DNA of 64,000 nt. Source: Magnolia sinica. Lineage: Eukaryota; Streptophyta; Magnoliopsida; Magnoliales; Magnoliaceae. The stretch spans positions 68,511,501-68,575,500 of the forward strand of contig NC_080586.1 in the NCBI RefSeq assembly GCF_029962835.1. Reading direction: 5' to 3'. This document shows positions 19,034-43,811 of this stretch, one piece after another. How positions within the stretch are numbered: the first letter of the stretch is position 1; each line of letters starts with the position of its first letter. The notes below the pieces were generated by a model, which made no database searches, was not told the origin of the DNA, and saw only the letters and a list, made by a program, of their open reading frames with translations. Both the position numbers and the translations under genes were made by a program.

Positions 19034-19181
19034 GAGAAAATGACCACTGTAGACAAAACCTTTTACCCAGCGGTTTTTATGAAGGAAGACAAACTTAAGT
19101 TACCAAGTTAGACTAGCACGTGCGGACAGCGACTTTGAGGACGAAACTACCCCTCCTTTTTACTGCCGTTGCTTTTCCTCT
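19034..19181 (+). repeat. Left terminal inverted repeat of the 24.8 kb MULE
   Basis: 148 bp aligned without gaps to the reverse complement of 43664-43811, with three mismatches (one near 19140 and two near 19163). Similarity stops at 'gcttttcctct'. Confidence 0.9.
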
Positions 19182-19689
19182 CCCTTTAACAGAAAACACA
19201 TGCGCTTTTTCTCGGTACACATCCCTACGTTCCATTGCAACGAAAAACCGACGCACGGCCGTTTTACTTATCATTTCCCTTACTAAAATTCGAACTTTAT
19301 CATCTCCATATTATCATTCTACATTTGGCATTTTCTATCTTGGTGAGGGTTACGTAGAATCCTTCAAAGTGGTTGCACCTCCGATCTTCAGAAAGGTACA
19401 AATTAATCCCTCATTTGAAAGCATTCGTCCTCAACTTGCATTGAGCGAGGCTACGGTTGCGGGAGGAACAGATATTAAAAAAAAAAAAATACCCTAGTGT
19501 GGTTTATAGATTCTTTCCTTTGTATTATTGAACAACGATTAACTAAGTACTTGTGGAAATTCAGCTTGTAATTCAGCAAAGGTGCTTGGTCAAACTTAGC
19601 CATTGCACACTTTAATTTGAAGAAAGAACTCACAGAAATTGAGACGAGTGGAAGTCAACGACAATTGATCGACTACTCATCGAATTTTA

Positions 19690-20690
19690 TGTGAAGTTCG
19701 GTGAATTTCATGTCAGGCTCTTATAATTTCATTTGTTAGGCTTAGTCAATTTTATGCGTTGATCGTTCAAATTCATGTGAAACTTGTTTAATTCCATTTT
19801 AGGGCTCACTCAATTTCATTTTAGAGTCGCTCAATTTCATGTTTGCCCAGCTCAATTTAATGCTATGCTAGCTCAATTCAATGTTTGCCCAACTCAATTT
19901 CATGGTAGGCTCGCTCAATTCAATGTTTGCCCAACTCAATTTCATGCTAGGCTCGCTCAATTCAATGTTCGCCTAACTCAATTTCATGGTAGAATTGCTC
20001 AAGTTAATGTTTGCCAACTCGATCTCATGCTAGGCTCGCTCAATTTAATGTTTGTATTGATAAATTTCATGTTTGCCTCAATGAATTTCATTCTTGTCTC
20101 ACTGAATTTCATGTCTGTGTTGCTCAATTTCTAGTTTGCCATGCTCAATTTTCAGTTTGCCACGCTCAATTTTCAGTTTGCCATGCTCAATTTCAGCTTT
20201 CCTCGATCAAATGTTAGTTTGCCTCGCTCAATATATACTTTACCTTGCTCAATTTTCCCTCTTCCCTTGCTGAATTTCTTGTTTGCCTCGCTCAATATAT
20301 ACTTTACCTTGCTCAATTTTCCCTCTTCCCTTGCTGAATTTCTTGTTTGCCTTGTTCAAAATCTAGGTTGCGTCGCTAAATTTCCAGGCTTCCCTTGCTC
20401 AATTATTTATTTTGTGTCACTCAAATTCGAACTTCCCTCGATCGATTTCATTTTTCCCTCGTTCAATTTGTAGTTTGCCTTGCCCAATTTCTAGCCTGTC
20501 TCGCTGAACTTTCGCTTTTCCTTCATTGAATATCTAGTTTGCCTCGTTCAATTTATAGGCTGCCTCGTTGAATTTCTAGTTTGCCTCGTTCAATTTATAG
20601 GTTGCGTCGCCGAATTTTCATGTTTGCCTTAATCATTTCCATGTTTGCCGCGCTTAATTCTAGTTGAGGTTTATTCCATTTTATCCGAAC
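19690..20690 (+). repeat. 21-bp minisatellite, left block (type A, diverged)
   Basis: About 45 units in the order 'gctcaatttc' + 'atgtttgcc' or 'agtttgcctc'. The period is mostly 21 bp, so two or three frames stay open and give heptapeptide repeats (e.g. AQFNVCP). Units are diverged compared with 25640-26125. It is not a host gene despite the open frames. Confidence 0.85.
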
Positions 20691-20699
20691 CTCGCTCAA

Positions 20700-22471
20700 A
20701 TTTATCAAGTGCTTGATATTTAGTATTAATGTATATGATGTAATGCTTAAATTCTTATTACTCTAATTCTAATTAACCATGTGTAGAGAATTTAGCCTTC
20801 TATCCCCTTATGGTACATTTGTAATTGCTTAAATATAGGTATATTTCTAGTAGATATGACATGAACCGTCAAATTACATTTTATTTTGTCTTATACACCA
20901 TACAATGTGGAATATTTGTTGAATATTGAATGAACTTTTAAATATTCCAAATTGCTTAACCATACTTGAGATTGATATGACACATTTGTGGGCTGTCATT
21001 TGAGCTTAGAGGAATTATAAGAATCCATCTTAAATTCATGTGTTGATGTTTAATATAATGATTTGATAATATGTACAATTTAAAGAGCAATCTGGACAAA
21101 ATTTAAGGGATGTACGTGGGTACCATGATGCCATGATGTATAACATCCACCCATGACATATGAGCTTTACCGGGTGCTCAATGTAAGCCACATGCTGCTC
21201 CAGTTACTAGAATAGCTAATTGAACCTATATAGAATTCCCTCAGAAGAAGTAAAATTGCGAACCTAGCGACGTAAAAGTTTAGGACCTTAGGAAATTTCA
21301 GATTTAGTTGTTTGAACGTAGAAATGAAACTTAGGTTCCCTTAAAATCATTAGAATAGCCATTCAAACTTGGTTGGAATCACTCTGGAATTATGACATTT
21401 GAGAAGATAGAGACTCAATATTTTAAGTTCTCTAGGAGATTGATTGCATAACCATGAAACCTAGGAACAAAACGTAGGTCCCCATTAAAAACTTTTAGAA
21501 TGATTGTTTGAACTTAGAACTAAACTTAGGAATTATGGGAGAACAAACAATCTGTTATGATGTATATTAGACTAAACAAGAATGTTCCTTGAACTTGACC
21601 TTCATTGAACTTTTTAGTAACTTAGGATTTGAATTTTACCATAATTTTCCTTAGTTGAAATGACATTGCGAAGGCACTCAGTAGACAGTAGGTGAAATGA
21701 GTTTAGGCATTGTAAGCAGTTCCTTACCCATTACATTGTACATTAGATCCAATTTAAGCACTCCCTACACTTAAAACCCGCACTAGGAGTTAACAATGAA
21801 AATTCAATAAGAAATCTCATAAGTTAGAGATGATATTTCTCATAACTTTTAGCAATTAGCACTAACTAGAAGCAAATGTATAAAGGTTTGAGAAAAAAAT
21901 TCCAGCACTAAATGGAGCATATTGAGATTAGGATTTTGTATTTCGAATCCTCAAATACATCTCGTTGATCAGAAACAACATCTCTCGTGTGCTTTAACAA
22001 TTAGAAATAATTAATAGTGAAATTTTAGGTGAAATTTCAACCCTAGACTCTACTTGTTGAGACTATCTTTGAAAATATATGTAAGTTTAACATATTTTGA
22101 ACCCAAATCCTCATGTAGAAATGTTAGGTTTGTATATTTTTTTTGAAAGTGTACTAGGCCATCATAGAATTGTCCCTTGTTAAAATAGAAGACTATATGG
22201 ATATCCCATGATAGATAGCATCACTGAATTTAACAAGCACCACATGAAATCATTCTTATCTCTGAATTTGTAATCCATATAAGCTCTTCTTGTTTATTTA
22301 AAAAAAATTAACGCATTGTTTACATTTTATTTCCTTAAGCTATGTATCTTCGTCATCTATTATGGAACGTCAGTACTCACTCCTCTATTATTTAATCGAG
22401 TTTTGTCTTATGGCAAGCTTCCATGGCTTAATGATTCACTAATATAATGTCATTGTATCGGTTTTCAAATA
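20700..22471. other. Non-coding spacer between the left minisatellite and transposase gene
   Basis: AT-rich and without a long ORF. It presumably contains the transposase promoter and 5' UTR, but no motif was convincing. Confidence 0.5.
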
Positions 22472-24877
22472 ATGTCTACTACGAGAATCATCTGCTGTTA
22501 TGGCGGGAAGATTAAATATGAGAACAAGCGATACTCGTACACTGGTGGGGATTCGAAAACTTTTTCACTACATGTCGAGACTACGTACGAGGAGCTTCTA
22601 TCTAGAATTTACAGGATTATTAAGAGTCAACCAACAGATTGTGATATTAGGATGAAAGTAATGTATCCTTACACAAATGAATCAATCCCTCCAACTGTAA
22701 TCGCAGACGACGATGACGTGCGAGAGTTCCTGGCAACACAGTTGGAGCATTCGGATAAATTCATTCCCTTAGTCATCGAGACAACGCAACACATTAATTG
22801 GAAAACACACATAGATAGCTTGCCTGAGGAGCATGGCGTGGAATTTGAATACAGGGCATCTCCATTACAAGTGGTAGTGAGCAATGATCAACTGCCCGAG
22901 CCGCCTCAAACATCAAACTTTGTGAGTAGCCAAGTCAGCTGGGCACGTGACCTTAACCTCACTTATGAGTATATGGCACCGCCTTTAGCAACAACAGCAG
23001 ATCTGCCATCATCATCCACCACCCGAGCTGTACGTGTAAGCGACACTCCGCTTTCAGACCTTGCTAAAAGCGGAAACTTCATCACTCGTCAAGTTCCCGT
23101 GCCATTTGATGATGCTGCATTCACCAATGCAGCACTGCTAGAATATACAGATTCGTTGGGTGAACCGATCGATATAGCTGTTGGACAAACATTTAAGGAC
23201 AAGAGTCGATGCCAGTATGTTCTAAGCCAATTTGCAATTCGCAATAAATTCCAGTATAAGGTACTGTACTCAAATTCCAGCAGATTTAGCGTGGTGTGCT
23301 TTGAAGATAAATGCAACTGGAGGGTTGACGCAAGTCGGTTGAATGATACCGGAATATTCAAGATACGAAATTATATGTCAGAACACACGTGCGGCATGTC
23401 GTGGATGAAGAGTGATCACCGGCAAGCAAGCAATAAGTTAGCATGTGATCTGGTTGTTAGCCGCATTGAGCAACGGTTAGGTTTGAGGCCACGTGATATT
23501 ATCTTCGCTGTGCAAGAGAAATATAATATTCTTATCAGTTATAGGAAGGCATGGAAAGCTAAGGAGCTTGCAATTAAACAGGTGATGGGGTCTTACGAAG
23601 ACTCTTACAATCAACTCCCCCTGTATTTGCATGAGTTGAGGATGGTCAACCCAGGGACGGTGACTGCCGTGCTCGTTAACCAAGAGACTTGGAGGTTTGA
23701 GAGGTGTTTTGTAGCGCTCGGACAATGCGTTCGAAGTTTTCAGAATTCTATGCGGAGGGTATTAGCCATTGATGGGACACACTTAAAGGGTAAATACAAG
23801 GGTGTTCTATTCATCGCCACGGCCTTAGATGGGGACAATCGTATATTTCCAATTGCGTTTGGCATCGGGGAATCAGAGAACAGTATGAGTTGGAATTGGT
23901 TCCTTACCTACCTTAACGATGCGTTAGGGTATCTGGAGGGTCTTGTGATTATTTTCGATCGACATAAAGGTTTAATAAAAGAGGTTCTCCAAGTATTCCC
24001 ACATGCAATTCATGGGTATTATGCGTACCATATTTATAGAAACTTGGTGGACACCTTTAAAGACAAGTCGTTGGAGATATACTACTGGCGGGCAGTTAAG
24101 ACTTGCAGGAGGGCTGAATTTGAAAAATTAATGCATGATATTGAAATGGCCAACCCCCCAGTACATGCATGGCTGACAGAAATCGGCTACGAAAGATGGG
24201 CATCGTCTCACTTTACAGGTAAAAGATTCAACTTGGTCACCACAAATATATCTGAGTGTGTTAACGCCCTCTTCAAAGAAGCGCGGGAATACCCTGTTAC
24301 CAAATTGATAGAGGCTGTAAGATGTAAGATACAAGAATTATTTTACAAGAGAAGAGAATCTGCAGCCTCATTTGTCGGTCCGTTGACACCATGGGCGGAG
24401 CAACAGTTGAAGGATCTTATACAGAAGGCGCGAGATGTTCGCTGTCATCCGATTTCTCGAGATGAGTACCACGTCGTGGGAAATTATAATGATACAGTCA
24501 AGCTCAGCTCGCTTTCATGTACATGTCGTGAGTTTGACATGAAGGGGTACCCTTGTTTGCATGCCCTGTCCTCATGTATAAATTACAATCTTCCTCATTA
24601 CTCGTACTGCTCCCCATTCTACACAGTGCAAAATTACTTGAGCACATATAACGAATCGGTGTACCCAGTACGTGATATGAGCGAATGGGAGATTACCGAT
24701 GGCTTCAAGGAGTACTGTGCGAAAATTAAACCCCCGGGACAGAAGAGGCCATCTGGAAGACCAAAAAAGTTAAGAATTCCCTCACGTGGAGAAGAATCAA
24801 AAACATTAAAGTGCGGTCGATGCAAACAATCCGGACATAATCGTCGGACGTGCAAGTTTCCCATACCTGATGTGTAG
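22472..24877 (+). CDS. MURA-type (MuDR/MULE) transposase, open 801-aa ORF
   Basis: A single uninterrupted exon. Residues ~1-110 look like the PB1-like N-terminal domain found in many plant MULE proteins. About 235-305 is the MuDR DNA-binding region (TFKDKSRCQYVLSQFAIRN, CNWRVDAS, HTC). The MULE catalytic domain has Asp434 (AIDGTHLKG), Asp496 (IIFDRHKG) and Glu595 (TNISECVNALFKEAR). A SWIM zinc finger is at C683-x-C685-x9-C695-x-H697 and a CX2CX4HX4C knuckle at C781-C784-H789-C794. The protein would bind TIRs and catalyse cut-and-paste movement. Oddities: the family CxxH motif next to the second Asp reads YAYH (Tyr517 replaces Cys), and the usual ISDRHKG is IFDRHKG. The full length and position inside matched TIRs mark it as the element's own transposase. 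A domesticated MUSTANG-type gene is less likely because of the TIRs. Confidence 0.9.
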   Translation: MSTTRIICCYGGKIKYENKRYSYTGGDSKTFSLHVETTYEELLSRIYRIIKSQPTDCDIRMKVMYPYTNESIPPTVIADDDDVREFLATQLEHSDKFIPLVIETTQHINWKTHIDSLPEEHGVEFEYRASPLQVVVSNDQLPEPPQTSNFVSSQVSWARDLNLTYEYMAPPLATTADLPSSSTTRAVRVSDTPLSDLAKSGNFITRQVPVPFDDAAFTNAALLEYTDSLGEPIDIAVGQTFKDKSRCQYVLSQFAIRNKFQYKVLYSNSSRFSVVCFEDKCNWRVDASRLNDTGIFKIRNYMSEHTCGMSWMKSDHRQASNKLACDLVVSRIEQRLGLRPRDIIFAVQEKYNILISYRKAWKAKELAIKQVMGSYEDSYNQLPLYLHELRMVNPGTVTAVLVNQETWRFERCFVALGQCVRSFQNSMRRVLAIDGTHLKGKYKGVLFIATALDGDNRIFPIAFGIGESENSMSWNWFLTYLNDALGYLEGLVIIFDRHKGLIKEVLQVFPHAIHGYYAYHIYRNLVDTFKDKSLEIYYWRAVKTCRRAEFEKLMHDIEMANPPVHAWLTEIGYERWASSHFTGKRFNLVTTNISECVNALFKEAREYPVTKLIEAVRCKIQELFYKRRESAASFVGPLTPWAEQQLKDLIQKARDVRCHPISRDEYHVVGNYNDTVKLSSLSCTCREFDMKGYPCLHALSSCINYNLPHYSYCSPFYTVQNYLSTYNESVYPVRDMSEWEITDGFKEYCAKIKPPGQKRPSGRPKKLRIPSRGEESKTLKCGRCKQSGHNRRTCKFPIPDV

Positions 24878-25639: not shown

Positions 25640-26125
25640 GTTGCAACTTCCACAATTTCCAGTTTGGCCCGCTCAATTTCCAGTTTGTTCCACTCAATTT
25701 CCAATTTGGCCCACTGAAATTCATTCAATGTCCCGCTCAATTTCCAGTTTATCCCACTCAATTTCCAGTTTGGCCAGCTTAATTTCAAGTTTGGTCCGCT
25801 AAATTTCCAATTTGGCCCGCTGAAATTCTAGTTTGTCCCGCTCATTTCCACGTTTGCCCGCTTAATTTCCAATTTGGCCCGCTCAATTTTGGCCCCCTCA
25901 ATTTCCAGTTTGGCTTGCTCAATTTTCAGTTTGGCCCACTCAATTTCCAATTTGGCCAACTCAATTTCCTGTTTGTCTCGCTCAATTTCCAGTTTGTCCC
26001 GCTCATTTCCATGTTTGCCCGCTCAATTTCCAATCATTTTCCAGTTTGTCCCGCTCATTTTCCAGTTTAGCCCGCTCAATTTCCAGTTTGGCCCGCTAAA
26101 TTTCCAGTTTGTCCCGCTCAAATGA
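25640..26125 (+). repeat. 21-bp minisatellite, type A block
   Basis: About 23 units built from GCTCAATTT and CCAGTTTGGCCC cores, fairly uniform, starting ~760 bp after the transposase stop. Some units carry a -1 or +1 change, and some have 'cgctcatttcc' instead. Confidence 0.9.
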
Positions 26126-26799
26126 ATATTCCAAGGACTACTAGTTGAGCACTAAAATAAATCCCCAACTAAAAGGAGTAATATGCATATGAAAGAATCT
26201 ATTTCTTACAAGGGAAAATAAACCATGCCTACATAAAGAAAACATAGCAACTTAAAGTTTCCCAATCAGTTATGGTAACAAACCCACTGGCTTATCTTCC
26301 AATAAGACCTGTCTCAACCACTACTACAATAATGAATAAGCTTCATGTTTACATGCTTGGAATGTGCATCTGATAGTGATATGGACCAGCTGTAACGATT
26401 GAGGAATTCTAGGAATTATATACTTTCATGATTTTCCAGCAACAAAAACATAAGATAAGCTTACCAGAAATAGATAAAGGTTTCCAGAAAGTCAATCAAG
26501 TTTCATGGCAATTGCCACAAGATATCTAGCTCTAGATTCTTTTGATTAGTGCTTTTTGCAATTTTCAGATATCTTGAGGAAATAAAACCAACTTTTCATA
26601 GGAATCCATGATAAAGAGATTGAGGACCCCACTTTTCAGATATCATGAGGAAATAAAACCAACTTTACTTAGGTGTATTTTATGTAAATTGCATATCTTG
26701 TTTGATAAACACAGTAGGGTTGGACATCTAACCCCACTAGTCTTTCCTTTCTTTCAAAGCTTTTCTACTTACATAGAAAATAGGAGCTTTTAATGAACA

Positions 26800-27075
26800 T
26801 CCAATCCCGCTCAATTTCCAGTTTGGCCCGCTCATTTCCTAGTTTGGCCCGCTCAATATCCAGTTTGGCTCGCTCATTTCCTAGTTTGGCCCGCTCAATA
26901 TCCAGTTTGAATCGCTCATTTCCTAGTTTGGCCCGCTCAATATCCAGTTTGTCCCGCTCAATTTCCAGTTTGTCCCGCTCAATTTTCAGTTTGCCCCGCT
27001 TATTTTCGAGTTCGTCCTGCTCAATTTTCAGTTTGGCCCGCTCAATTTTCAGTTTGGCCCGCTCAATTCCCGGTC
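26800..27075 (+). repeat. 21-bp minisatellite, type A block
   Basis: About 13 units alternate 'ccgctcaatatccagtttgg' and 'cgctcatttcctagtttggc'. It leads without a gap into a type B block and gives the peptide heptad RSISSLA. It is part of the left arm of an internal inverted structure. Confidence 0.9.
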
Positions 27076-27425
27076 AATTCGCTTCACTTCACGGTCATTT
27101 CCATGCATTTCACGGTCATTCCCAGCGATTCCGTGTTGATTCACGATCATTTCCATGCATTTCATGGTGAATTCCCTTCACTTCACGGTCATTTCCATGC
27201 ATTTCACGGTCAATTCGCTCCACTTCACGGTCATTTCCATGCATTTCACGGTCAATTCGCTCCACTTCATAGTCATTTCCATGCATTTCACGGTCAATCC
27301 CGTCGATTCCGTGTTGATTCACGGTCATTTCAATGCACTTCACGGTCATTTCCCTTCACTTCACGGTCATTTCCATGCATTTCACGGTCAATTCCCTTCA
27401 CTTCACCATCATTTCCATGCATTTT
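27076..27425 (+). repeat. 21-bp minisatellite, type B block
   Basis: About 16 units of the 'ttcacggtcatttccatgca' kind, often in a 42-bp higher-order pair with 'ttcacggtcaattcgctcca'. Period and partial sequence (GGTCAATT versus GCTCAATT) suggest common origin with type A. Confidence 0.9.
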
Positions 27426-28000
27426 TTCTAAACAAACAAACTAAACTATAGGACTACTCCATTACAAGTCGTATTTTGTATCAAGCAATTTATTTGGGAG
27501 AGGGAAATCCAGCATATCTTGTTAGCTTGAGGGGAGGCATTGGAATTTCCTTTGCCTTCAACACAGATGATCTGCACTCAATTATAATTAATTTATAAGA
27601 AACTTATATATTAATCGAGTTTGTGTTGGGTCAGGCAACCCAAGACCTCAATCCGAGCTCAACCCAAGTTTTATCAGGTTGGTGTTTGTATGGCCCAACC
27701 CCAAGACCAAACTCGATACATCCTGCCCAAGCCCAACCCAATGTTGGGTCGGCCACAGGTTGGTCGGGTTGAGCCCGCCCAACTTCTAGCCCTATAATCA
27801 TATACGGTATGTTAAGTAACTAATTTTGGTTTAGAAGATATTCTTGTTATATGAATAAAGAAAGAAATTTTAAAAAAAAGTGATAAATTTTTTTTTTTGC
27901 ATATGCTTATATATACATATTTATATAAATGTTATCTCAGCATCCTCTACCAAAACCCCAATCAGCTCAAGGCAGCAAGGATTATGTACAATAGCTAAGA
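27426..28000 (+). repeat. Left copy of the internal inverted arm (unique part)
   Basis: Matches the reverse complement of about 36700-37200: 'ttacaagtcgtattttgtat', 'gaggggaggcattggaattt', 'cagatgatctgcactcaatt', a hAT-like 'gttgggcgggctcaa' element and 'atgaataaagaaagaaat'. Partial direct copies lie at 31430-31560 and 34445-34600. Confidence 0.75.

Positions 28001-28439: not shown

Positions 28440-28440
<1 letters not shown>

Positions 28441-28478
<38 letters not shown>
28441..28478. repeat. (AG)n microsatellite
   Basis: 38-bp GA run beside the captured PFP-beta piece. Confidence 0.95.
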
Positions 28479-28483
<5 letters not shown>

Positions 28484-28732
28484 CTTTATGAGAAAACAAT
28501 ACTTGTAAATTAAAGAACGAAATTTTCTTTTTATGAGAAAACACCACGAAGAATTAGAAGGCAGCACTGAAGATCCCTTTTTTCCTGTTGAGGTAAAAGG
28601 TAAGCTGATTTCATTTTTGTATGAAACTTCCAATTTCTCCATTTTTGCTGCTGGGAACAATCTCTGACATTTCCTTGTAGGAATCAGAACTAACGAGCAT
28701 TTTGATCTAATTAAATAGAACAGAGAACATAC

Positions 28733-29020
28733 TATAATTGGAGCAGCACCACATCGCCACTTGTTCACGGGATTTTTCAGGTTGGTCACAATTGCCATGT
28801 ATCCATTCAAACCAGCAGCTAGAATGTGATAGCAGATGTGCCCAAGAACCTGCACAGATTTGATTCTTAATCATGCACAGATCATCAACATAACTCGAAA
28901 AGGAAAGAAAGCTGTTGTTTTTTAGAACATACATAGGCATATTCACAGTCAAACTTCAATGGTAAAGAACCCCGGGCCTGATAGCCAAAGAAGTGGCAGA
29001 TAGCATTGAATTTCTTTCCT
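28733..29020 (-). pseudogene. Captured fragment of PFP beta subunit (pyrophosphate--fructose 6-phosphate 1-phosphotransferase)
   Basis: On the minus strand, the first exon piece (about 29020-28933) reads [20 protein letters not shown] and ends at a GT donor. After an 83-bp intron, a second exon at 28849-28733 (39 codons) starts [19 protein letters not shown] and ends [10 protein letters not shown] at a GT donor. Intact PFP-beta is ~560 aa and catalyses reversible PPi-dependent phosphorylation of fructose 6-phosphate in the cytosol; this piece covers ~65 residues near the middle. Start, active-site N-terminal half and C-terminus are missing. Retention of the intron shows capture from genomic DNA, as in Pack-MULEs. 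It lies between inverted minisatellite arms inside the MULE. Confidence 0.8.
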
Positions 29021-30595: not shown

Positions 30596-31430
30596 ATTGG
30601 CCCGCTCATTTTCCAGTTTGTCCCACTCATTTTCCAGTTTGGCCCGCTCATTTTCCAATTAGGCCAGTTTGGCCCGCTTAATTTCCAGTTGGCTCGCTCA
30701 ATTTCTAGTTTGGCGCGCAATTTTCGGCTTGTCCCGCTCATTTTCTCGGTTTGTCCGCTCATTTTCGATTAGGCGGTTTGGCGCTCATTTTCGGTTTGTC
30801 CGCTCATTTTCGATTAGGCTTTGGCGCTTAATTTCCACTTTGGCCCGCTCATTTTCTAGTTTGGCCCGCTCATTTTCGCCCGCTCATTTTCCTATTTGGT
30901 CCGCTCAACCAGCTTAATTTTCAATTTGGTTCGCTCAATTTCTAATTTGGCCCGCTCATTTTCGTGTTTGCCCTGCTCAATTTGATTTCCATGCATTTCA
31001 CGTTAAATTCGCTTCACTTCACGGTCATTTCGGCAATTCCGTGTTGATTCACGATCATTTCAGTTTGTCCGCTCATTTCCATTTGGTCCGCTCATTTTCT
31101 AGTTTGGCCGCTCATTTTCAAGTTAGGCCAGTTTGGCCCTTTTGTTTTTGGTTCACTCAATTTCTAGTTTGGCCCGCTCATTTTCTTTGCTTTGCTTAAT
31201 TTTCATAATTGCCTCTCAATTCCTGCTAAATTCGCTTCACTTCACGGTCATTCCCGGCAATTCCGTGTTGATTCATGATCATTTCCATGCATTTCACGGT
31301 CAATCCCGGCGATTTCGTGTTGATTCACGGTCATTTCCATACACTTCACGGTCATTTCCATGCATTTCATCATTTCACGGTCAATTTCCTTCACTTCACC
31401 CTCATTTCACGGTCATTTCCCTTCACTAAT
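30596..31430 (+). repeat. Mixed type A/type B minisatellite block
   Basis: Type A units (gcccgctcattttccagtt and shorter, eroded forms) run to ~30985. Type B units follow at ~30986-31060, type A again to ~31215 and type B to 31425. Unit lengths vary more than in other blocks, so this copy is older or rearranged. Confidence 0.85.
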
Positions 31431-32027: not shown

Positions 32028-32540
32028 CTGCACCAAATATCGTGAAATTCATGATATCTAATGATTAATCAGTCTGATTTGGCGGAAATAATCATTATAG
32101 TTCAAAAATTTTTTTGCAACCAAACACACCCTAACTAAAATGAGATGAACTTTTTTTTTGCCAAAAGAAAAAAAGAGAGAGAGCTTGTTTTCCCAAACTA
32201 CTGCCATTTATTACTATCGTTTTGCAGCTGAAAATCTCAGCATTTTTTATGGTGGTTAGGCTTGATGATGACATGCAACGATGCTCTCGAGTTGCACCAA
32301 AAGAACCAGGTCCAGTTACAACAGTAACAAGATCAATCCCCTAAGAATCTCAACCAATTGACAGACTTGACTGAAGGGGTAAATTACAGCACACGTGTGA
32401 GGATCCATTCCATGTACCAGGTGGATCCCAGATGAACATGGGCAGGATTCCTTTTTTCTTCCTCTGTTTTTTTTTTTTTTTTTTAAAATGCAATAATATT
32501 ATGAAGATCAATGAAACAAAAACAAGATGGATCAACTGAC

Positions 32541-32937
32541 CATTTTTTCTGGCAGCACGAAAGAGAAGCTCCGCGATAAGGTACTGTGCAGGGTCACCTT
32601 CAGGGACGTTTTCAATAAACCATGCGACATGGTCCCATACTTCTTCATTGCTGAAGTACTGGTAAAGCCCATCAGAAGAAAGGACTAAAAAGCGGTCATT
32701 CGAGCATGGACGGTGATGGAGAACAGAAGGAATACAGATGAGGTATGGAGCACTCCCAATGTACTCAATCTGAAACATCTCCAACAAAGCTTCATTGCAT
32801 TTCGGCTGCATCCAAGAAATGAAACATAACCACAGATAAATCAGTTTCACAGAAAAGATGGAAGATCTCCAAGAAATATAATCAAACCAGTTGCCTTCTG
32901 ACTTATGCTGAAACAAAGAACCAGTTCAGAAATGAGA
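32541..32937 (-). pseudogene. Captured exon of a protein phosphatase 2C (POLTERGEIST-like type)
   Basis: The exon at 32805-32541 (88 codons plus one base) reads PKCNEALLEMFQIEYIGSAP, LHHRPCSNDRFLVLSSDGLY, QYFSNEEVWDHV and PEGDPAQYLIAELLFRAARKNG. It has an AG acceptor at its start and a GT donor at its end; the ~130 bp upstream to 32937 looks like the native intron. The Asp of SSDGL is the PP2C metal ligand. The match is to the C-terminal third of PLL-type PP2Cs, whose next exon (DFHELLDIPQGDRRRYHDD) is missing. Intact members are Mn/Mg-dependent Ser/Thr phosphatases acting in meristem and receptor-kinase signalling. As a lone exon inside the MULE it cannot encode a phosphatase. Confidence 0.8.
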
Positions 32938-33435: not shown

Positions 33436-34385
33436 ACGTTATGGATTTTATATCAGAATTCTATGATAGAGGTCACCTCTCTAAGGAACTTGGAGCCACC
33501 TTCATTGCCCTTGTCCCCAAAATTGAGCCTATAATTCTAATTGGGAGCCCTTCTAAAATCCTCACCAGAGTTCTTTCCCTAAGAATTAGAGGTGTCTTAT
33601 AAACGGTGATATCAGAAAATCAAGGTTCTTTCATAGCAAGTAGATGGATCCTCAACACTGCCCTAATGGCCCATGAATGTATCAACTCCAGACATAGAGA
33701 AGGGAAGAATGGATTAGTCTACAAGCTAGATATTAAAAAGACTTACGATCATGTTGACTGGAACTTTTTAGACTATACGCTAGAAAGACTTGGTTTTGGT
33801 CTCAAGTGGAGAGGTTGGATTCAATCTTGTATTCAATCCCCATATTTCTCAATTCTGATTAATGGCTCACCTTTTGTTTTTTTCAAGGCCTCTCGCAGTA
33901 TTGGACAAGGTGACCCAATACATTGTTACCGGATAGGCTTTTGATAGGATGCTTCATAAAGCAAAGGGAAATGATTTAATCCGAGGTTTTAACGTTGCAG
34001 AGGCAGGGGTGCAATGTGCAAGTTAGCCATCTTTAGCATGCGAACGACACAATCCTCTTTTGTGATGCAAACCTTACTTCGATTGATAATCTCCAAAAAA
34101 TCACATTATCCATCGAAGCGGTTTCGAATCTAAATGTTAATGCCTCCAAAAGCGAATTATTGGGGATTCATGTGCCTCATGATGTCCTAATCCAAATGGC
34201 AAATGTCTTCATGTGCAAAACAGGATCCTTCCCGTTATCATATCTTGGCTTGCCTCTTTGCATAGGTAAGCTAGTGAAGCATCTATGGGACAAGGTTATC
34301 GAGAGAATTGAAAGAAACTTATCAAGTTGGAAGCATTGTTATCTTCCTTAGGAGGGTGGTTAACTCTTATCAAAACTACTTTCTC
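33436..34385 (+). mobile_element. LINE (L1-type) ORF2 reverse-transcriptase fragment
   Basis: Reads RGHLSKELGATFIALVPK, then ISENQGSFIASRWILNTALM, LVYKLDIKKTYDHVDWNFLD, WIQSCIQSPYFSILINGSPF and GQGDP, and after frame changes a SYLGLPLCIGK and LTLIKTTFSNMPI region. These are RT blocks of plant L1 elements in order. The endonuclease and C-terminal zinc region are missing. The YADD box region is frame-shifted. Its 3' end is cut at ~34385 by a minisatellite-arm copy. Confidence 0.8.
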
Positions 34386-34610: not shown

Positions 34611-35751
34611 CAAATAAACAATAAAAAAAAAAAAGAAACGGTTGGTTAAAAAAGAAAAAGAAAAAGGTAGTTCTTGGGCTCGTTCATGCACATCTCAAAC
34701 ATTGTTCTCGCCCACAAATGTCAATATTGGGCTGTGTCATTGGCTGTTACAACTTAAAACATACAAGATTCAATTTATTTAACTTTTTGTAATCCAGCCA
34801 GATTGAACGGGATCTCACAACATTAATAAAGATGATTTCAGAGCCCAAATGAGAGTGAAATGGTAAATTAGTCACTGTAGAGAGAGATTTGTGATCAGTC
34901 ATTTCTTCAAGTTTGCATTTTGAAATGGCTTGCTAGTTCTACTAGGAGATAGATACATGTAGAGCCAACTCCTAGATTGCCCGCTGATTTGCATGACCAT
35001 TCCTTCAAAACTGAGAATTGCCTTTGAAAACTACCAAACCTCACCAAGAGTATATGACCATGACGCAACCAGCAGTTTAGATAAACCAGATGCAACTGAT
35101 AACTATTATAGTTTCATTCTTACAACCTAGATCACACAATGTTCCTAATATTGAAGCTCCATTCCAAATAAAATCTTTGAAACAATCAGTGTAATGACAA
35201 AAAGAATAAACAAAATTTATAATAGAAGCAAAGGAAATAAGCACTACCAAATGATAGAGCAAAGGTTAGTACATTATCAAACTGATTCAGTCTATGAGAT
35301 TCTTCTCCTCCTCATATATACTAGCCTGAACAAAGAAAACAAGCCCACAAACATGAATGAATTTGTCTAATGACTTGAACTCATTTAACCTAGAGAGCAT
35401 CGAAGAACCAAGGCCCACAAGTACATATCAAGTTCAATATTGTGCTAAAAGTGAAATCGATCAATTTCTGGACAAAACTAATAGGAACAAAAAAAATTGG
35501 AGATTTAATATTGTTGCTGCATTTTCTTAATGATCTATATGTAGCTAGCACATCCGTAGCTGGCTCAGATCAATAGCCTAGCTCACCAAACCATGGACTG
35601 CTTTTGCATCTTTTTACTGACCAACTGTTTTCTTAACTGATGGGTTGCAAACAAACGATTAAGAAAAAGCTGAAACAAAAATCAAAATTTGTTAGAAAAA
35701 AGACAACATTTGGACCTATTTACAAAAGTCACTTGCCCATCAGTTAGGTCA

Positions 35752-35842
35752 GCTTAGCATCAAATTCCTTCTCCAATTCCACCTCTTCTTCCAAATACCT
35801 CCACTTCAGCTCAGTCTTCTTATCTTCATGCAATCGTATCAG

Positions 35843-35919
<77 letters not shown>

Positions 35920-35980
35920 CTCTTTTATCTGATTTGACTGGCTATCAATGAATTGAGCAATCTCCTCAAGCCTACTTTAA
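35752..35980 (-). pseudogene. Captured coiled-coil gene fragment broken by a (GA)n expansion
   Basis: The minus strand reads LEEIAQFIDSQSNQIKEF, then a 72-bp GA run, then EKLIRLHEDKKTELKWRYLE followed by EEVELEKEFDAKLT and a stop. Both sides are charged helical protein-like sequence, but they are in different frames across the GA run. This is probably a host gene piece in which the microsatellite grew. Family not identified. Confidence 0.45.
35845..35916. repeat. (TC)n microsatellite
   Basis: 72-bp uninterrupted CT run inside the coiled-coil fragment. Confidence 0.95.
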
Positions 35981-36119
35981 GGACTATTTGGATGTGTTAG
36001 GATTTTTTATTTGTTATTTATGAAGAAAATGGAGGTTATAAAGCCTTGGGTCAATGTGAAAGAGAAACTCAGAGCAATATAATAAACAAAGCACACCAAA
36101 CTAGAAACGGAAGAATGCG

Positions 36120-36430
36120 TCGACCATTAAAAACTTTTTGGGGGTCCACTGTGATGTTTGTGAGAAATCCTCCCCGGCTAAGTTCATTCATAGGGTCACA
36201 AAGACCTGGATGAGGAAGAAAAATAAATTTCATAATGATCCAAATCTTCTATAACCCCTAAAAGGGTTTCAATGGTAGACGTTCAATTCCCCATTGCCTT
36301 ATACAGTGTGGTCTACCCGATAGTTAGATCTATCTTATTTTTCGTCTCAAGCCTTAATATGAGTTCGTCAAATAGCCATAGGTTTGGATATAACACAGAC
36401 CTCATTATAGGACCCACAAAAGGCGGTGGG
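36120..36430. repeat. GGGCCCAC-family remnant nested in the MULE
   Basis: 'cgaccattaaaaacttttt', 'tccactgtgatgtttgtgag', 'agggtcacaaagacctgga' and 'cagtgtggtctaccc' match the internal parts of copies at 1700-1900 and 42950-43150. Confidence 0.5.
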
Positions 36431-36489
36431 GATTACAACAGCAAAAAAGAAAAAAAAGAATGGAAAAAAATGAAAGAGGAAAGAACCTA

Positions 36490-36655
36490 TGGCTACGGTT
36501 TTCTATGACTACGGATTATAACCGTAGCCACAGACGGGCGATCCATCGCAGTTCCCACGATTCCACCGCAAGTCGCTGTCCCGAACGGCGATCAATCATA
36601 GATTCGGCGATTCCACCCCCGATCTATGGCTACAGATTATAACTGTAGCTATAAC
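36490..36655. mobile_element. Foldback MITE, second copy
   Basis: The inverted counterpart of 31598-31760, with 'ctacggattataaccgtagc' inside and 'tatggctacagattataact' at its right end. Its place at the inner edge of the right arm matches the left arm. Confidence 0.55.
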
Positions 36656-36699: not shown

Positions 36700-37200
36700 T
36701 ACCTACATTTTTCTCTAACACCTTTATGTAAATATGTATATATAAGCATATAAAACCAAAAATTATCACTTTTTTCAATTCTTTCTTTATTCATATAATA
36801 AATACTTATAAACCAAAATTAGTTACTTGACGTACCATATATGATTTTAGGGCTAAAAGTTGGGCGGGCTCAAACCGACCAACCTATGACCGACGTAACA
36901 TTGGGTTGGGCTTGAGCAGGATGTATCGAGTTTGGTCTTAGGGTTGGGCCATACAAACACCAACCCGATAAAACTTAGGCTGGGCTCGAGTTGGGGTCTC
37001 GGGTTACCCTGATTAATATATAAGTTCCTTATAAATTTATTATAATTGAGTGCAGATCATTTGTGTTGAAGGCAAAGGAAATTCCAATGCCTCCCCTCAA
37101 GCTAACAAGATATGCCGGATTTCCCTCTCCCGAATAAATTGCTTGATACAAAATACGACTTGTAATGGAGCAGTTGTCCTATATTTTAGCTTGTTTGTTT
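36700..37200 (-). repeat. Right copy of the internal inverted arm (unique part)
   Basis: Reverse complement of 27426-28000, including the hAT-like 'agttgggcgggctcaa' stretch and the 'gatacaaaatacgacttgta' junction. Differences are scattered, roughly one in ten bases by eye. Confidence 0.75.
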
Positions 37201-37450
37201 AGGAAAAAATGCATGAAAATGATGGTGAAGTGAAGGGAAATGACCGTGAAATGAAACAGAATCATCGGAATTGAACGTGAAATGCATGGAAATGACCGTG
37301 GAGTGGAGCGAATTGACAGTGAAACGTGTGGAAATGACCGTGAAGTGAAGGGAGTTGACCATGAAATGCATGGAAATGATAGTGAATCAACACGGAATCG
37401 CCGGGAATGACCGTGAAATGCATGGAAATGACTGTGAAGTGAAGCAAATT
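37201..37450 (-). repeat. Type B 21-bp minisatellite, inverted
   Basis: About 12 units of 'tgcatggaaatgaccgtgaa' kind, the reverse complement of 27076-27425. Confidence 0.9.
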
Positions 37451-38045
37451 GACCGAAAATTGAGAGGACAAAATGAAAATTGAGCAGGATAAACTAGAAA
37501 TCGAGGGGGCCAAACTGAAATCGAGCGAGACACTAAATCGACATCGAGCCGACCAAATTGAAAATTGAGCGGCCAGAGCGGACAAACCGAAATTGAGCGA
37601 CAAACTAGAAATCGGGACAAACCGGAATTTGAGCAAAACCGGAAAATGAACGGACAAACTAGAAATTGAGCGCCAAATCGAAAATCGAGCGGACAAACCG
37701 AAATTGAGCGACGAACTAAAAATTGAGCACCAAACGAAAATCGAGCGACAAACTTAAAAATGAGCGGGCCAAATTGGAAATCGAGTGGGATAAATTGGAA
37801 ATTGAGCGGGAAAACTAGAAATTGAGCAGCAAACATGGAAATGAGCGGACAAACTAGAATTTCAGGGCCAAATTGGAAATTGAGCGGCAAACATGGAAAT
37901 GAACAGACAAACTAGAATTTCAATGGGCCAAACGGAAATTGAGGAGGCAAACATGGAAATGAGCAGCCAAACCGAAAATTGAGCGACAAACTAGAAATTG
38001 AGAGGGCCAAACTGAAATTGAGCGGGAACTGAAAATACAGTGGGA
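37451..38045 (-). repeat. Type A 21-bp minisatellite, inverted
   Basis: About 28 units of 'gggccaaactggaaattgag' kind with many one- to three-base losses. It is the reverse complement of 26800-27075 and ends in 'actgaaaatacagtgggaca', text repeated at 42508. Confidence 0.9.
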
Positions 38046-38144
38046 CAGTACAAAGATCATTTCATTATCCACCAAAATTACATAGCATGCTATACATCCA
38101 CCCATGTACTTCCGGTAAATATGCAGCAAATTTTCAAGTATGTG

Positions 38145-38384
38145 CATTTCAGTCTGAGTTCCTTCTCTAATCACGATGGCCTTGGGAGGGTTGATCCGAG
38201 GGATGGGTTGATTGCAAAAGGGCCTATTAAAACTATATTGGGTTATCTTCCTGGCTGGCATAATGGTTTCAAAACCAGCAAGATAACCCAATATGGTTTT
38301 AATCGACCCTTTTGCAGCCAACCCATCCCTCGGATCAACCCTCCCAAGGCCATCGTGATTAGAGAAGGAACTCAGACTGAAATG
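38145..38384. repeat. Near-perfect 240-bp hairpin
   Basis: The arms, about 38145-38256 and 38274-38384, are inverted copies with only a few mismatches: 'catttcagtctgagttcctt' pairs with 'aaggaactcagactgaaatg', and 'ggttgatccgagggatgggt' pairs with 'acccatccctcggatcaacc'. The loop is ~18 nt. It lies between the minisatellite and the 3' end of the ULP1 gene. A transcript would fold into a long dsRNA stem. Confidence 0.85.
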
Positions 38385-38558
38385 AACAGAGCTGGAAATT
38401 TTCTGTCACTCCAAGAATACTGTCAACCTCATACAATGTATATAACATGAAATGGTACATGAGCGGGACAACAATGTACAAAGTATATTCAACAATGAAA
38501 TTAATAATCTATATAATACAACATCTTTCCAAAAATCCTCCCATGCCCTGGACAAATA

Positions 38559-41449
38559 TCATCTACGGACTAGAGACAAACAATCATATGCTATTGACTT
38601 CCTCCAATCGGCAGTGAATTTTTGCATGTCTGTTCCCGCCAAGGTGAGACCGCTACACAAAATGTCAATGAATTTCATTACGAATATGCCGCAGTCATAA
38701 CCATTGTGCTGCTTCGGCGCAGATTCATCCACTCTAACGGACCAATTCTTCCCTTCAAGCGCAGTGCTGTCTCCAGTGGCATGGAAGAGAATGGGGAGTG
38801 CATCAGTCATGTTCTTCATCTGCTGCTTATACTTCGGCATTACATTTGTGCATAAGCTATCTACAACAACGATTTCTCTTGCTCTAGGGTAGATGACCAA
38901 CAGAAACCAATGTGAATTTTCATAATTTATGGGCGCATAGACCTGTCCATGATTCACAAAATAATATATTAGTCAAAACATGATAGAACACATAACAGTA
39001 ACAGATGATGTTCTGTGACGAGTGCATTACCCGTTCATAACACCAAATCGCTTTGGCGTATGGTTTATCTCGCTGCTTGGCAATTGCGTAAGCCGGAGTC
39101 AGCTGGCCTATTAGCGAGGCCCGTTCTGATGCCGATTTTGAGGCCCGGTATGCGATCAAAACCGGCAAACACCCCTCAAGGCTTTGCTGTTACAAACATG
39201 CTCAAAGTTCAATACATGTAAGAAAATAAAATCTTCAAACAAATTAAGGTTTGGCGAAATAAACAGTTACCGTAAAATACGTAGGACAGAACTTGCAATC
39301 CTGGCGATATGTTATTGAAAGGTCGTTATGCCTTTTTTCAAGGAACTCTATGTATGTGTCGATAGCCTTATCAATAGGATAGTACGATTTAGTCATAGAT
39401 TAATATAACAATTAATTATATGTCAATCAATGCATATAGAGAATAAATTAGTAATGATTACCTCGCTATCAACCCACGCATCTTTCATCCATATCGTACT
39501 AAACCATTTCCATGCTGGGATGTCCTTGTTTGCTTCATACCAGTCATCTACCTCTTTCACCTCATGTGCGGATAATGCTCTGAAAGGATCCATATGTAGA
39601 GGAAATGGTATCGGAGAAGTAGCAAAAGCGGTTACTTGGTTGGGTTCGGGAACCGACCCATGGGTTGTGTCGAATGCAGACAGGGACAAGTACGGAGACA
39701 TCTTGTAATATGATGGCTTCGATATCCTTTTGGCTCTTCTTTCATAAACGGGATGAGAAGTGGATGCATTCAATACATTACCTTTGGCATTACTATACGA
39801 TTGCACACCCAGATCCTCGTATCCAGGTTCTTTATCGTCAATATTTACTTCCCCTCTATTCCTCAACTCCTCACCCTCCTCCATCACAAAATGTCCCTTT
39901 TGTGTATGAGTACCTTCCTTCTCCTTATTAAACTCCTCCCTCTCATTCGCTAACTTTTCCTTCTCCTCAAAAAACAAGTCCTTCTCCCTCTTAAATTGTT
40001 CTTTCTCTTTCAGTAAGGTATCCCTCTCATTAAACATTGCTTCTTTCCTCCTTATCTCTTCCCTCTCTTTTCTCAATTCGTCCCTCTCCTTCTTCAATTC
40101 CTCTCTCTCCTTCTTCAATTCCTCTCTCTCCTTCTTCAACTCTTCCCTCTCAATCCGACATTCCTCCATAAAAAGAACATTCTTCATAATACCCACCCTC
40201 GGTCCCTCTCCCTCCATGCCTTTCTTATCATTATCATCTGACTCGTCATCCTCTTCATGATCAATCTCATTACCCTCCTCATCCTCCTCATCATCTTCCT
40301 GACTCTCAGTGAGCTGCAAAATGTATACATGGATATGTCAGAGTAAGGATATCGAAACAATGGTAGATAAAATATAGTTCATTTTTCACAACAGCTCACC
40401 TAGAAACTGTCACGCACCGAGCGAACGGCATCTGTTTCCCATTCTCGCAGCGTTGGTTCTAATTTCAATACTACTGATGTCTGCAAAAAAATAAAGAGTA
40501 ATGTTAAATATAAAAGCATATACGTCAAGTTAAGCAAAGTAGATGGAAGAGAGAGATATATATATATATATATAAACTTACAGCTCTACTCTCGAAAATA
40601 GCATGTATTCTCTTGTACCTCCAACCCTTCCAGCCTCGATATTGAATGAAGCGTGGAATTTGATGGGGAACATATGAAACAACACATTCTTGTAGGGCTG
40701 GTAATATCTCTACTGCCCATACCTATTAGAATGGAATTGCACCCGGTTAAAAATTCAAAATTAACTATAGAGGGAAAACATATAGAAAATAAAAGGTGTT
40801 CTTACTTGTAAAGGAAGGACACAACCATACACAGTGTACCGAGGGGAACTTGATGCGGCAACGGCAGATTCGATTCCTTGCGACATTGTATTGTATCCCA
40901 AACTACCCCAGGGATACCTATAGAAATCATCTAGCGAGTCCACCAGATGAATATAATCCATGTTACACCTGGTTTTTGGTTCGTTTCCCCTAAGAAAGTA
41001 CTCCACAACTAGAAGTAGGGCAACCTTCACGACGTCTTCATGCTTATTGGTGTCAATTAATCTCTCAAACACGTCCATTAGGTGCTTCTTTAATACTGGA
41101 TATTCTTTAAAGTATTTGTCTCTTAATGTACTCGTAGTGCAAGAAATATTTGGTACAGTAAGATCTCCAGTCTTAAGACCGGTAATGAGGGCGAAGTCCA
41201 TCTCGGTAAACTGTAATCGTCTCCCCCTGATCTCAAATACTAGATCACCTTTGTATCTTACAAGAAGAAGGTGAAATAGAGCCCCTATAAATCTAAATGA
41301 TGTAATATGCAATAGAAACGAGAAAGGGGATTGCCTAAACAGATTTAGCCGACTATCGTGCTTCTCTACTCCACCCTTCACCTTGTCAAACCACCATGTC
41401 AGTGTACACCTAGATGTTGGGTTGGAGATTACAACAGAATATTCGTCGC
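38559..41449 (-). CDS. MULE-borne ULP1-like (C48) protease with DUF1985 domain, partial 5' end
   Basis: Seven GT-AG exons read on the minus strand: 41449-40806, 40722-40582, 40480-40400, 40313-39462, 39366-39271, 39186-39031 and 38942-38559. Exon 1 is a DUF1985 domain (LNLFRQSPFSFL, FTEMDFALITGLKTGD). Exon 4 is acidic then a long coiled coil made of REELKKE heptads. Exon 7 is the peptidase: His in NSHWFLLVIYP, Asp in VVDSL, Gln-Cys in KQHNGYDCGIFVMKF, so the triad is complete. The total is ~783 residues without the unseen first exon. C48 proteases cut SUMO or similar conjugates; plant MULEs of the Kaonashi type carry such genes on the strand opposite the transposase. The last codon of exon 3 is TAG (40402-40400), probably CAG before, so the copy may be dead or mis-predicted there. 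Confidence 0.75.
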
Positions 41450-42407
41450 CTGCAGAGATGAATTGAAAAACATATCAAAAATAAAATTCATAAGATAAAC
41501 ATAGTGGACAAAATCAGACATAATTGAAAACAATGTATCTATGATCTTATGAATAGGTTTGATAACAAACAAACAAGTTATCCTAATGAGCATGTTATCC
41601 ATGTTAACACAATGAACATGGTGATGTATTATTGACATCCTTATACATTGGTGATCTAATATTCACAGACAATGATAGTGTTATGATTGATGAGTTTATA
41701 AAGGCTACTTCGTAAATTTGAAATGACAAATATGGGTCTTATGGCGTATTATCTTGAATCAGGATAAATTAAATACATGATGTAATTTTTTCATTTGAGA
41801 ACACGTATATTCATGAAACTCTAAAAATCATTGCGATGAAAAATTCTAAATTAGTGTGCATACTCATGGAAATTACGTTGAAATTGAGCAACGACAAGAA
41901 AAACAATCTAATAGATCCTAAAGGGTTTCAAGTTGTTGATTAGAAGTTTTAAATACTTAACTCATACTAGCCTAAAAATCTTGTATATTGTGGAATTACT
42001 TAACTATCACATGAAATTTCTAAATTAGATTCATTTACAAGTAGGGAAAAAGATTTTGCATCATTTGAAAGGTATACTTGATCATGGTATTTATATGTGT
42101 GCTAAAGAATATACTCTTTTTTTCTTCACAAATAGTGATTACGTAGGCCAATTTATATAGACAATAAAAAAGTACGTTAGGCTACTTATTCTATATTCGA
42201 AGCGGTTCATTCACATAATTTTTAAAAAAGAAAGATGTGATAACAAACAAACATCACTGTTGGGCCCACTACGGTTTCAATGGTGGAAATCATTATGCCC
42301 ACTGTTTACTGTGGTATCATCCACTTGATCTTTTGATATGCTTCAATTTGGGGTTAAACCGCTTAAATTAGATGGAAGAATGGATGGACAGCGTGGATAT
42401 ACTACGG
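41450..42407. other. Spacer upstream of the ULP1-like gene
   Basis: AT-rich. Should contain the missing first exon and promoter of the ULP1-like gene; no convincing start exon with a matching phase was found. Confidence 0.4.
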
Positions 42408-42660
42408 GCCAAACTAGAAATTGAGCGGGCCAAGCTGGAAATGAAATTGAGTGGGCCAAACTGGAAATTGAGCGGGCCAATCTGGAAATTGAGCGAGACA
42501 AACTGAAAATACAATGAGACAAAGTATAAAGATGATCATTTCATCATCTACCAAAATTACAAAGTATGTTATACATCCACCTATGCACTTCCAACAAATA
42601 TGAAATTGAGTGGATCAAATTAGAAAATCAGCGGGACAAACTAGAAAATCATTATGCTCA
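42408..42660 (-). repeat. Short inverted type A minisatellite block near the right MULE end
   Basis: About 5 units at 42408-42500 and 2-3 at 42600-42650, separated by 'aaaattacaaagtatgttat' text that is a direct copy of 38080-38115. It mirrors the left block at 19690-20690. Confidence 0.8.
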
Positions 42661-42766
42661 CTGTTTCTCGTGGTATGATCCACTTCATATCTTCATATGC
42701 TTCAATTTCAGGCTCAACCCCTTAAATTAGATAGAAAAACGGATGGATGGCGTGGATATACTACAT

Positions 42767-43344
42767 GAAACGGATTAGCTACTCCCCATGCCACCAGCCA
42801 ATGGCTGGTGTTCGGTGCTCTGTGGGCCCCATCATGATGTATGTGTTTCAACCATGCCGTCCATCTATTTTTATATATCATTTTACGATATTATACAAAA
42901 AATGAGGTATATCCTAATCTCAATTGAACCACATTACAGGAAACAGTGTTTAATGAACATCAACCATTAAAAAGTTTTTGGTGGCCATAAAAGTATTGGA
43001 TCAACATGATCTTTGTTTTTACCCTTCATCTGGGTCTTTATGACGTAATAAACAGATTGGATTTCAGGTAAAGAGTACAGTGGGCCTCAGGACGATTTAA
43101 ATGATGGATATCCAATCACTATTGTTTTCCTGTATTGTGGTATATCTAAGATTTATATCCCTCTTATTTTTAGGATAAAGCCCTGGATGAACTTTAAAAA
43201 TGGATGAACGGAATGGATGAAACACATACATCATGGTGGGGCCCACAGAGCACCGACCGGCGACCATATACATCATGGTGGGGCCAACGGATCATCGACC
43301 ACCGACCACGGGGCTGGTGTTAGGGGGAGTAGCCAATCCGTTTC
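42767..43344. mobile_element. Complete TIR element of the GGGCCCAC family, nested in the MULE
   Basis: The ends 'gaaacggattagctactccc' and 'gggagtagccaatccgtttc' form ~20-bp inverted repeats. Inside are inverted 'caccagcc/ggctggtg' and 'gtgggcccc/ggggcccac' boxes. Near the right end, 'acatcatggtggggcc' is duplicated in tandem. Non-coding, 578 bp. The flanks ctacat and ctatat are similar but too short to prove a target duplication. Confidence 0.65.
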
Positions 43345-43663
43345 CTATATTAAATACATTCAATGTGGGCCCAACTGAGTTTAAAATATACCTGTGGTGC
43401 GTGCTTTCTTCATTGGACGGACCATTTTCAGAAGAAGACAAAATGTTGATAAGAGGGGCCCACAGAAAGGGTGTTTTTTGGTCTTTCTAACGGGTGAGGA
43501 AAGGAGGTGAAAGTAATGGCAGTAAAACAGCAGTGGAAAAGGAGAGGAAAAGCAACAGTGAAAAGGAGGGAGAGAAAAAACAAACAGTTGAAAGGGAGAG
43601 TAAAAGCAGCGGTGCTGGAGTTTTCGTCTTCGTTTTTCGAAAATGTAAAGAGGGAAGTGAGGA

Positions 43664-43811
43664 AGAGGAAAAGCAACGGAGGTAAAAAGGAGGGGTAGTT
43701 TCGTCTTCAAAGTCGCTGTCCGCACGTGCTAGTCTAACTTGGTAACTTAAGTTTGTCTTCCTTCATAAAAACCGCTGGGTAAAAGGTTTTGTCTACAGTG
43801 GTCATTTTCTC
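43664..43811 (-). repeat. Right terminal inverted repeat of the 24.8 kb MULE
   Basis: Partner of 19034-19181. The adjacent inner sequence (43500-43663) is purine-rich on the + strand with repeated 'gaaaaggag' words and does not match the left inner flank. Confidence 0.9.

Follow-up and report, generated by a model that had tools for sequence, protein, structure and literature searches.

The locus raises two questions: whether 24.8 kb of DNA between matched repeats in the genome of the magnoliid Magnolia sinica is a single mobile element, and what the second of its two genes would do for it. We analysed a 64-kb window of the 1.84-Gb assembly (C14:68511501-68575500; positions below count from its first base), in which the original prediction had delimited a Mutator-like element (MULE) at 19034-43811 (24,778 bases) with 148-bp terminal inverted repeats (TIRs), an open gene for a MURA-type transposase, and a convergent gene of the ULP1 type. 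The element is full-length and belongs to a high-copy family of giant MULEs with TIRs that was mobile recently. The explanation that best accounts for it as a whole, and one that we consider probable, is that of a giant mobile MULE in which MURA and the second protein would make up an anti-silencing unit like those built on VANC and KIU genes.

Ends, target duplications, and related elements

Realigned without gaps, the two TIRs were identical at 145 of 148 positions, as the original prediction had it, and no other full-length TIR match was found in the window; one partial match of 31 bp is located at 43543-43570, inward of the right end and close to it. A 36-bp end pattern (up to 3 mismatches) occurred at 607 places in the genome (297 and 310 on the two strands), and the reversed pattern used as a control occurred at none. 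The results on neighbouring ends come from the first 100 of the 607 places. Among these, 31 neighbouring pairs lay less than 100 kb apart, of which 28 were convergent and 3 were not; the convergent pairs spanned 1.06 to 35.6 kb, with a median of 17.8 kb. Six distinct convergent pairs (hereafter, sisters) could be examined with the flanks on either side, and all six had perfect 9-bp target duplications. A genome search for the same ends had been suggested as a check, and its outcome did not refute the single-unit reading. The sisters measured 8.7, 12.7, 16.8, 17.7, 20.9, and 35.9 kb, with 0 to 4 mismatches between their TIRs; this count excludes a seventh pairing, in which the outer copy of an apparent tandem duplicate shares a right end already counted. 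Element comparisons cover these six and the 24.8-kb copy (n = 7) and omit regions on C71 and C77 and one on C4 for which a single end was in hand. The perfect duplications in the six sisters mean that the TIRs bound single transposition units and that the family was recently mobile. Overall, TIR-bounded spans ranged from 1.06 kb (end patterns only) up to 35.9 kb.

The 35.9-kb sister covered 22,768 of the 24,778 bases on the same strand at 88% identity or more, and 22,387 bases (90%) were strictly colinear; one 381-bp block was out of order, and some 13 kb extra in the sister lay between two colinear blocks. Because the sisters with both ends have perfect 9-bp duplications and one of them is 90% colinear, the 24.8-kb stretch is one transposition unit. 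Bases covered by none of the six sisters (in blocks of at least 88% identity over at least 200 bp) numbered 2,010, chiefly at 34990-36513. Given the 90% colinearity with the 35.9-kb sister, the interior is for the most part family cargo and not a pile-up private to the locus.

Two plus-strand ends with an identical flank lie 16.7 kb apart at C13:21588027 and C13:21604728, each with a MURA copy, as if an entire 16.85-kb element had been duplicated in tandem. Elsewhere, a 1.06-kb stretch between two perfect end patterns (C5:15118998-15120056) is perhaps a short non-autonomous derivative.

Two convergent genes and the 21-bp arrays

The transposase frame is open from stop to stop over 22448-24877 (809 amino acids), and the predicted 801 codons are recovered when counted from its first ATG. 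The frame matched the MULE, DBD_Tnp_Mut, Transposase_mut, and SWIM profiles; thus, the element combines a MURA-type transposase carrying MULE, DBD, and SWIM domains with long TIRs, as MULEs do. We scored 56 of 2,481 candidate MURA copies in the genome, a list that is incomplete even for close copies, since that of the 17.7-kb sister is not in it. Twenty-two of the 56 had an identity of 89% or more, and four of them, including the 24.8-kb copy, were free of stops (frameshifts may remain). Among the sisters, MURA was open in the 35.9-kb element, had two stops in the 12.7-kb and four in the 20.9-kb element, had a 2-bp deletion in the 17.7-kb and a 1-bp deletion in the 16.8-kb element, and was missing from the 8.7-kb element. 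The 56 scored copies also include stop-free MURA frames at 80% identity, of a related clade, at C35:28763, C1:18852683, C10:35176284, and C9:75010467.

The second gene is read from six predicted exons, which are separated by GT-AG introns and each consist of complete codons; together they give 756 open codons followed by TGA. Its product matched Peptidase_C48 (3.5e-26) and DUF1985 (2e-14), so that the convergent C48/DUF1985 gene stands as first described. The yeast Ulp1 residues His, Asp, Gln, and Cys, which we take to be catalytic, aligned to identical residues in the second protein. Between its DUF1985 and Ulp1 domains this protein has a coil built of EREELKK-type heptads. The gene was present in five of the six sisters and was missing from the 16.8-kb element. 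In the 17.7-kb sister it was free of stops and frameshifts and had lost 3 bp in frame; one stop each was present in the 8.7- and 35.9-kb sisters, the alignment of the 8.7-kb element also showing a 2-bp gap where exon 2 begins, and damage amounted to one stop and one frameshift in the 12.7-kb sister and one stop and three frameshifts in the 20.9-kb sister. The 24.8-kb copy was the only one of the seven elements compared in which MURA and the second gene were both free of stops and frameshifts. Just past the stop of the Ulp1 gene lies an inverted repeat with 131-bp arms (38124-38405).

Constraint was assessed from nonsynonymous:synonymous counts against a neutral ratio of 3:1, in 4 of ten comparisons. 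With the 20.9-kb sister, both MURA (42:34, P = 0.00014) and the second gene (47:29, P = 0.008) showed a deficit of nonsynonymous changes, as did the second gene with the 35.9-kb sister (9:10, P = 0.009). Across all ten comparisons, the ratio of nonsynonymous to synonymous rates (dN/dS) was 0.23 to 0.61. The pairing of the two genes recurred elsewhere: with 150 of 1,514 candidate DUF1985 exons scored, 27 of the 56 MURA copies had such an exon within 45 kb, in convergent orientation in all 27 cases, and 29 had none nearby. Since 24 of the 27 pairs belong to a related clade at 75 to 84% MURA identity, the convergent two-gene plan seems older than the element's family.

Both genes lie among arrays of 21-bp repeats, which are the minisatellite blocks noted at the outset. 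Inside the element, matches at a lag of 21 bases added up to 2,793 bases, of which 189 fall in the coil-coding exon, whereas the remaining 39.2 kb of the window had no such match; when lags of 17 to 25 were scanned, the only other one to score was 24, with 129 bases. The 9-mer GCTCAATTT occurred 42 times in noncoding parts of the element and was absent from the MURA frame, from the span of the Ulp1 gene, and from the rest of the window. The motif CTCAATTT pointed forward at 35 of 38 occurrences in the left 15 kb and backward at all 20 in the right 6.4 kb; thus, the arrays in the 24.8-kb copy mirror the directions of the genes.

A 30-bp unit pattern was found at 4,188 places in the genome and at none in the control. 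The first 100 of these places were compared with 91 TIR places up to C9:12.8 Mb, the matching stretch covered. Of the 100, 54 lay within 36 kb of a listed TIR and faced inward from it, versus 0.29% expected, and none stood in the outward position only; counted by clusters, 30 of 65 lay inward of a listed TIR. We also counted exact 30-bp units within 30 kb of DUF1985 exons, using the 71 of the 150 scored exons that fall in the stretch covered by the listed units. Such units were near 5 of 15 exons of at least 90% identity, 3 of 18 at 86 to 89%, and 0 of 38 at 80 to 85%. This trend may reflect divergence of unit and protein together, and it may also be plain sequence divergence because only exact unit matches were counted.

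Proposed function and alternatives

By analogy with known systems, the likeliest role of the second protein would be that of an anti-silencing factor of the VANDAL/KIU type working on the element's own repeats. MURA from the element would act on the 148-bp ends and move the unit, leaving 9-bp duplications behind. The DUF1985-coil-Ulp1 protein would be directed to the noncoding 21-bp arrays that flank both genes and would there relieve host silencing of both, in the manner of Arabidopsis VANC/KIU, so that MURA would be free to act on the TIRs. We infer these steps (MURA activity on the ends, array binding and protease activity of the second protein, and lifted silencing) because the element has each structural feature of VANDAL/KIU elements except the absence of TIRs. 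A bolder version, which we hold tentatively and would not favour on balance, supposes a magnoliid lineage of giant TIR-MULEs with self-contained anti-silencing, in which the protein would read the 21-bp unit, with its core GCTCAATTT, in mirrored arrays beside both genes, the unit changing with the protein lineage. If true, this version would extend Ulp1-type anti-silencing beyond the eudicots and to elements that have TIRs, and it might connect giant size with array growth.

Several observations weigh against the main explanation. No start exon of the second gene was found in the 2.2 kb upstream (at least 60 nt, GTRAG donor, right phase). In the 35.9-kb sister, arrays of both orientations occur in the interior, and 46 of the 100 listed unit places lay away from any of the 91 TIR places used; the other 35 unit clusters may belong to unlisted TIRs or to related families. 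Derivation of the noncoding arrays from the coil-coding 21-bp repeat was unsupported at the DNA level (P = 0.14 for unit A and 0.46 for unit B) despite the equal period, units A and B showed no detectable relatedness (P = 0.67), and the arrays could be expanding by slippage alone. MURA did not depart significantly from neutrality in the comparison with the 35.9-kb sister (21:8, P = 0.44), and the four constraint tests have one branch in common and P values that are uncorrected.

The target duplication of the 24.8-kb copy is a further such point. Over 10 bp and without gaps the flanks match at 8 positions, as first reported. However, the duplications of the family are 9 bp long, and over this length the 24.8-kb copy reaches 5 of 9 in register, or 8 of 9 with a one-base slip in the A run beside the right end. 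It might therefore be a recombinant of two family elements, formed by exchange or deletion, with flanks from different insertions. The contrast with the six perfect duplications of the sisters would fit such an origin, as would the apparent tandem copy of one sister on C13 and the outcome of the search for an empty site: with the flanks joined, 40 of 66 candidates in this assembly were scored, and no match spanned the junction. The matches besides the locus itself involved one side only, and a few of them had edges near the junction; we regard this outcome as neutral. Flank scores as high as those observed (8/9 slipped or 8/10 ungapped) were reached by about 0.05 to 0.09% of random placements in the window and by 1 to 2 of 500 positions in the purine-rich right flank. 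We read the flanks as a probable decayed duplication and think recombination improbable; the colinear sister is expected under either reading and so is not decisive. Chance convergence of two separate short elements, which would have undone the single-unit claim, was rejected as scarcely credible: the window holds only two full-length TIRs, no further one lies inside the element, and the six sisters repeat the plan with matching left- and right-type ends, one of them colinear over 90%.

The main functional alternative to an anti-silencing role is that a giant MULE captured a relative of SUMO proteases, which would aid transposition or the turnover of host factors, the arrays being slippage products or subterminal binding sites of the transposase. 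The alignment of the Ulp1 catalytic residues agrees with this, and arrays stand close to the left end in all 7 elements and close to the right end in 6 of them, mirrored there as subterminal transposase sites might be. In the sections consulted of a grapevine survey, ULP1 also recurs in distant MULE families and in CACTA families (PMC2528002). However, the arrays lie deep in the interior as well, DUF1985 is a domain of VANC proteins (PMC5735166), and the DUF1985 exons near MURA were convergent in 27 of 27 cases, down to a clade MURA identity of 75%. On this evidence we consider a captured protease of that kind unlikely and keep to an anti-silencing unit of the VANC/KIU type.

Cargo, neighbourhood, and known systems

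Features of the element in window coordinates
Feature	Position	Strand	Remarks
Candidate left target duplication	19025..19033		AAAGAGCAA; degraded
Left TIR, 148 bp	19034..19181	+	100% identity to nine other genomic copies listed
21-bp tandem array	19762..20664		Between left TIR and transposase; in 7/7 elements compared
MURA-type transposase	22472..24877	+	801 codons, open; MULE, DBD_Tnp_Mut, SWIM domains
21-bp tandem array	25642..26166		3' of transposase
21-bp arrays	26776..27447		Unit A (CAATTTCCAGTTTGGCCCGCT) and unit B (TTCACGGTCATTTCCATGCAC)
Degenerate 21-bp arrays	30597..31419		Units A and B
Frame with captured PP2C phosphatase exon fragment	32353..32925	-	By Pfam; in two of six sisters
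Reverse transcriptase fragment	33603..34351	+	RVT_1 for 33603-33941 only; both frames in two of six sisters
1.5-kb segment	34990..36513		Absent from this position in the 17.7- and 35.9-kb sisters
21-bp arrays	37255..38025		Beyond 3' end of Ulp1 gene; unit A in opposite orientation
DUF1985-coil-Ulp1 gene	38559..41447	-	Six predicted exons and stop; convergent with MURA
Predicted exons of this gene	41447-40806, 40722-40582, 40313-39462, 39366-39271, 39186-39031, 38942-38562	-	
21-bp array	42379..42651		Opposite orientation; between Ulp1 gene and right TIR; in 6/7 elements compared
Right TIR, 148 bp	43664..43811	-	3 mismatches to left TIR
Candidate right target duplication	43813..43821		AAAGAGAAA; degraded

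The predicted capture of host exons is borne out by the PP2C fragment, and the predicted nested material by the reverse transcriptase fragment, which in our reading is of the long interspersed nuclear element (LINE) type, and by the 1.5-kb segment. Private capture of the first two by the 24.8-kb copy was ruled out, since two of the six sisters have both in the same block. The 1.5-kb segment had no match of at least 88% identity over at least 200 bp in any of the six sisters, but a 435-bp part is found at 90% identity at another place in the 35.9-kb sister. Positions 28442-28870 may hold an exon fragment of pyrophosphate-dependent phosphofructokinase; they had no Pfam or PDB match. In carrying a host gene fragment (PP2C) the element resembles Pack-MULEs, but we do not file it as one because the term Pack-MULE usually refers to elements without a transposase.

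Outside the element, exon-like frames of a short-chain dehydrogenase gene lie about 11 kb apart (5209-5604 and 16487-16975), and the element starts about 2 kb past the second; downstream of the element there is a Redoxin-type frame (48470-48775). A long near-palindrome at 53335-55538, with successive arms 84 to 92% complementary and about 1 kb per side, is a hairpin or foldback element, and an inverted repeat at 2881-3745 has 390-bp arms, 89% complementary, with 85 bases between them.

The nearest known counterparts of the two-gene plan are VANDAL and KIU elements, described here from the sections consulted of each source. VANC proteins of Arabidopsis VANDALs contain DUF1985, bind short motifs that are tandemly repeated in noncoding parts of the elements encoding them, and bring about a loss of DNA methylation (PMC5735166, PMC10398659); their variable parts hold tandem peptide motifs (PMC5735166). 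In KIU genes, described in non-TIR MULEs, a VANC gene also encodes an Ulp1 domain; according to a review, these MULEs captured Ulp1 at the monocot-eudicot separation, and the exact part that the domain plays in them is unknown (PMC13317346). The Magnolia element, like the VANDAL/VANC and KIU (Kaonashi) MULEs of Arabidopsis and other eudicots, combines a transposase with a DUF1985 protein (with Ulp1 in KIU), noncoding tandem repeats, and tandem peptide motifs in the protein (PMC5735166, PMC13317346, PMC10398659). Its predicted exons join DUF1985 to Ulp1, and its arrays stand in noncoding parts of the family's own elements. In contrast to VANDAL and KIU elements, which are non-TIR MULEs (PMC13317346), the Magnolia family bears TIRs of 148 bp, includes units as long as 35.9 kb, and has a magnoliid host. 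We therefore do not file the element as a VANDAL because of its TIRs and place it, by analogy, as a MULE that would work like KIU elements. The family offers a non-eudicot system for studying Ulp1 in anti-silencing, one for which a recognition sequence is predicted and in which the arrays vary naturally.

A literature search by title and start of abstract found no description of this Magnolia family, and we make no firm claim that it is unpublished; a search for giant, large, or longest MULEs returned no transposon paper by title, and the words Mutator and MULE are absent from the main text of the Magnolia sinica genome paper (PMC10999834). The element is large, as the original prediction stressed, but its size is not unparalleled. 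Mutavine-1 of grapevine is likewise a very long TIR-MULE (17.7 kb, 70-bp TIRs), smaller than 24.8 kb and not marked as including ULP1 in the sections consulted (PMC2528002). Mutavine-18, Mutavine-3, and Mutavine-4 share with the Magnolia element long TIRs (141 to 263 bp) and ULP1 downstream of the transposase, and 9-bp duplications are listed for Mutavine-4, as in the Magnolia family; these ULP1-bearing elements reach 16.2 kb (Mutavine-18), less than the Magnolia element, and the same sections mention neither arrays nor DUF1985 (PMC2528002). CsMULE of cucumber also has long TIRs (117/115 bp), 9-bp duplications, and a MURA-like gene, but measures 7 kb, and a second gene is not described in the sections consulted (PMC6305189). 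The Magnolia sisters show that a MULE unit framed by TIRs and a perfect target duplication can be as long as 35.9 kb. Overall, large TIR-MULEs with ULP1 are already known from grapevine, and what differs in Magnolia is the size, the copy number, the concentration of arrays in the elements, and the host lineage.

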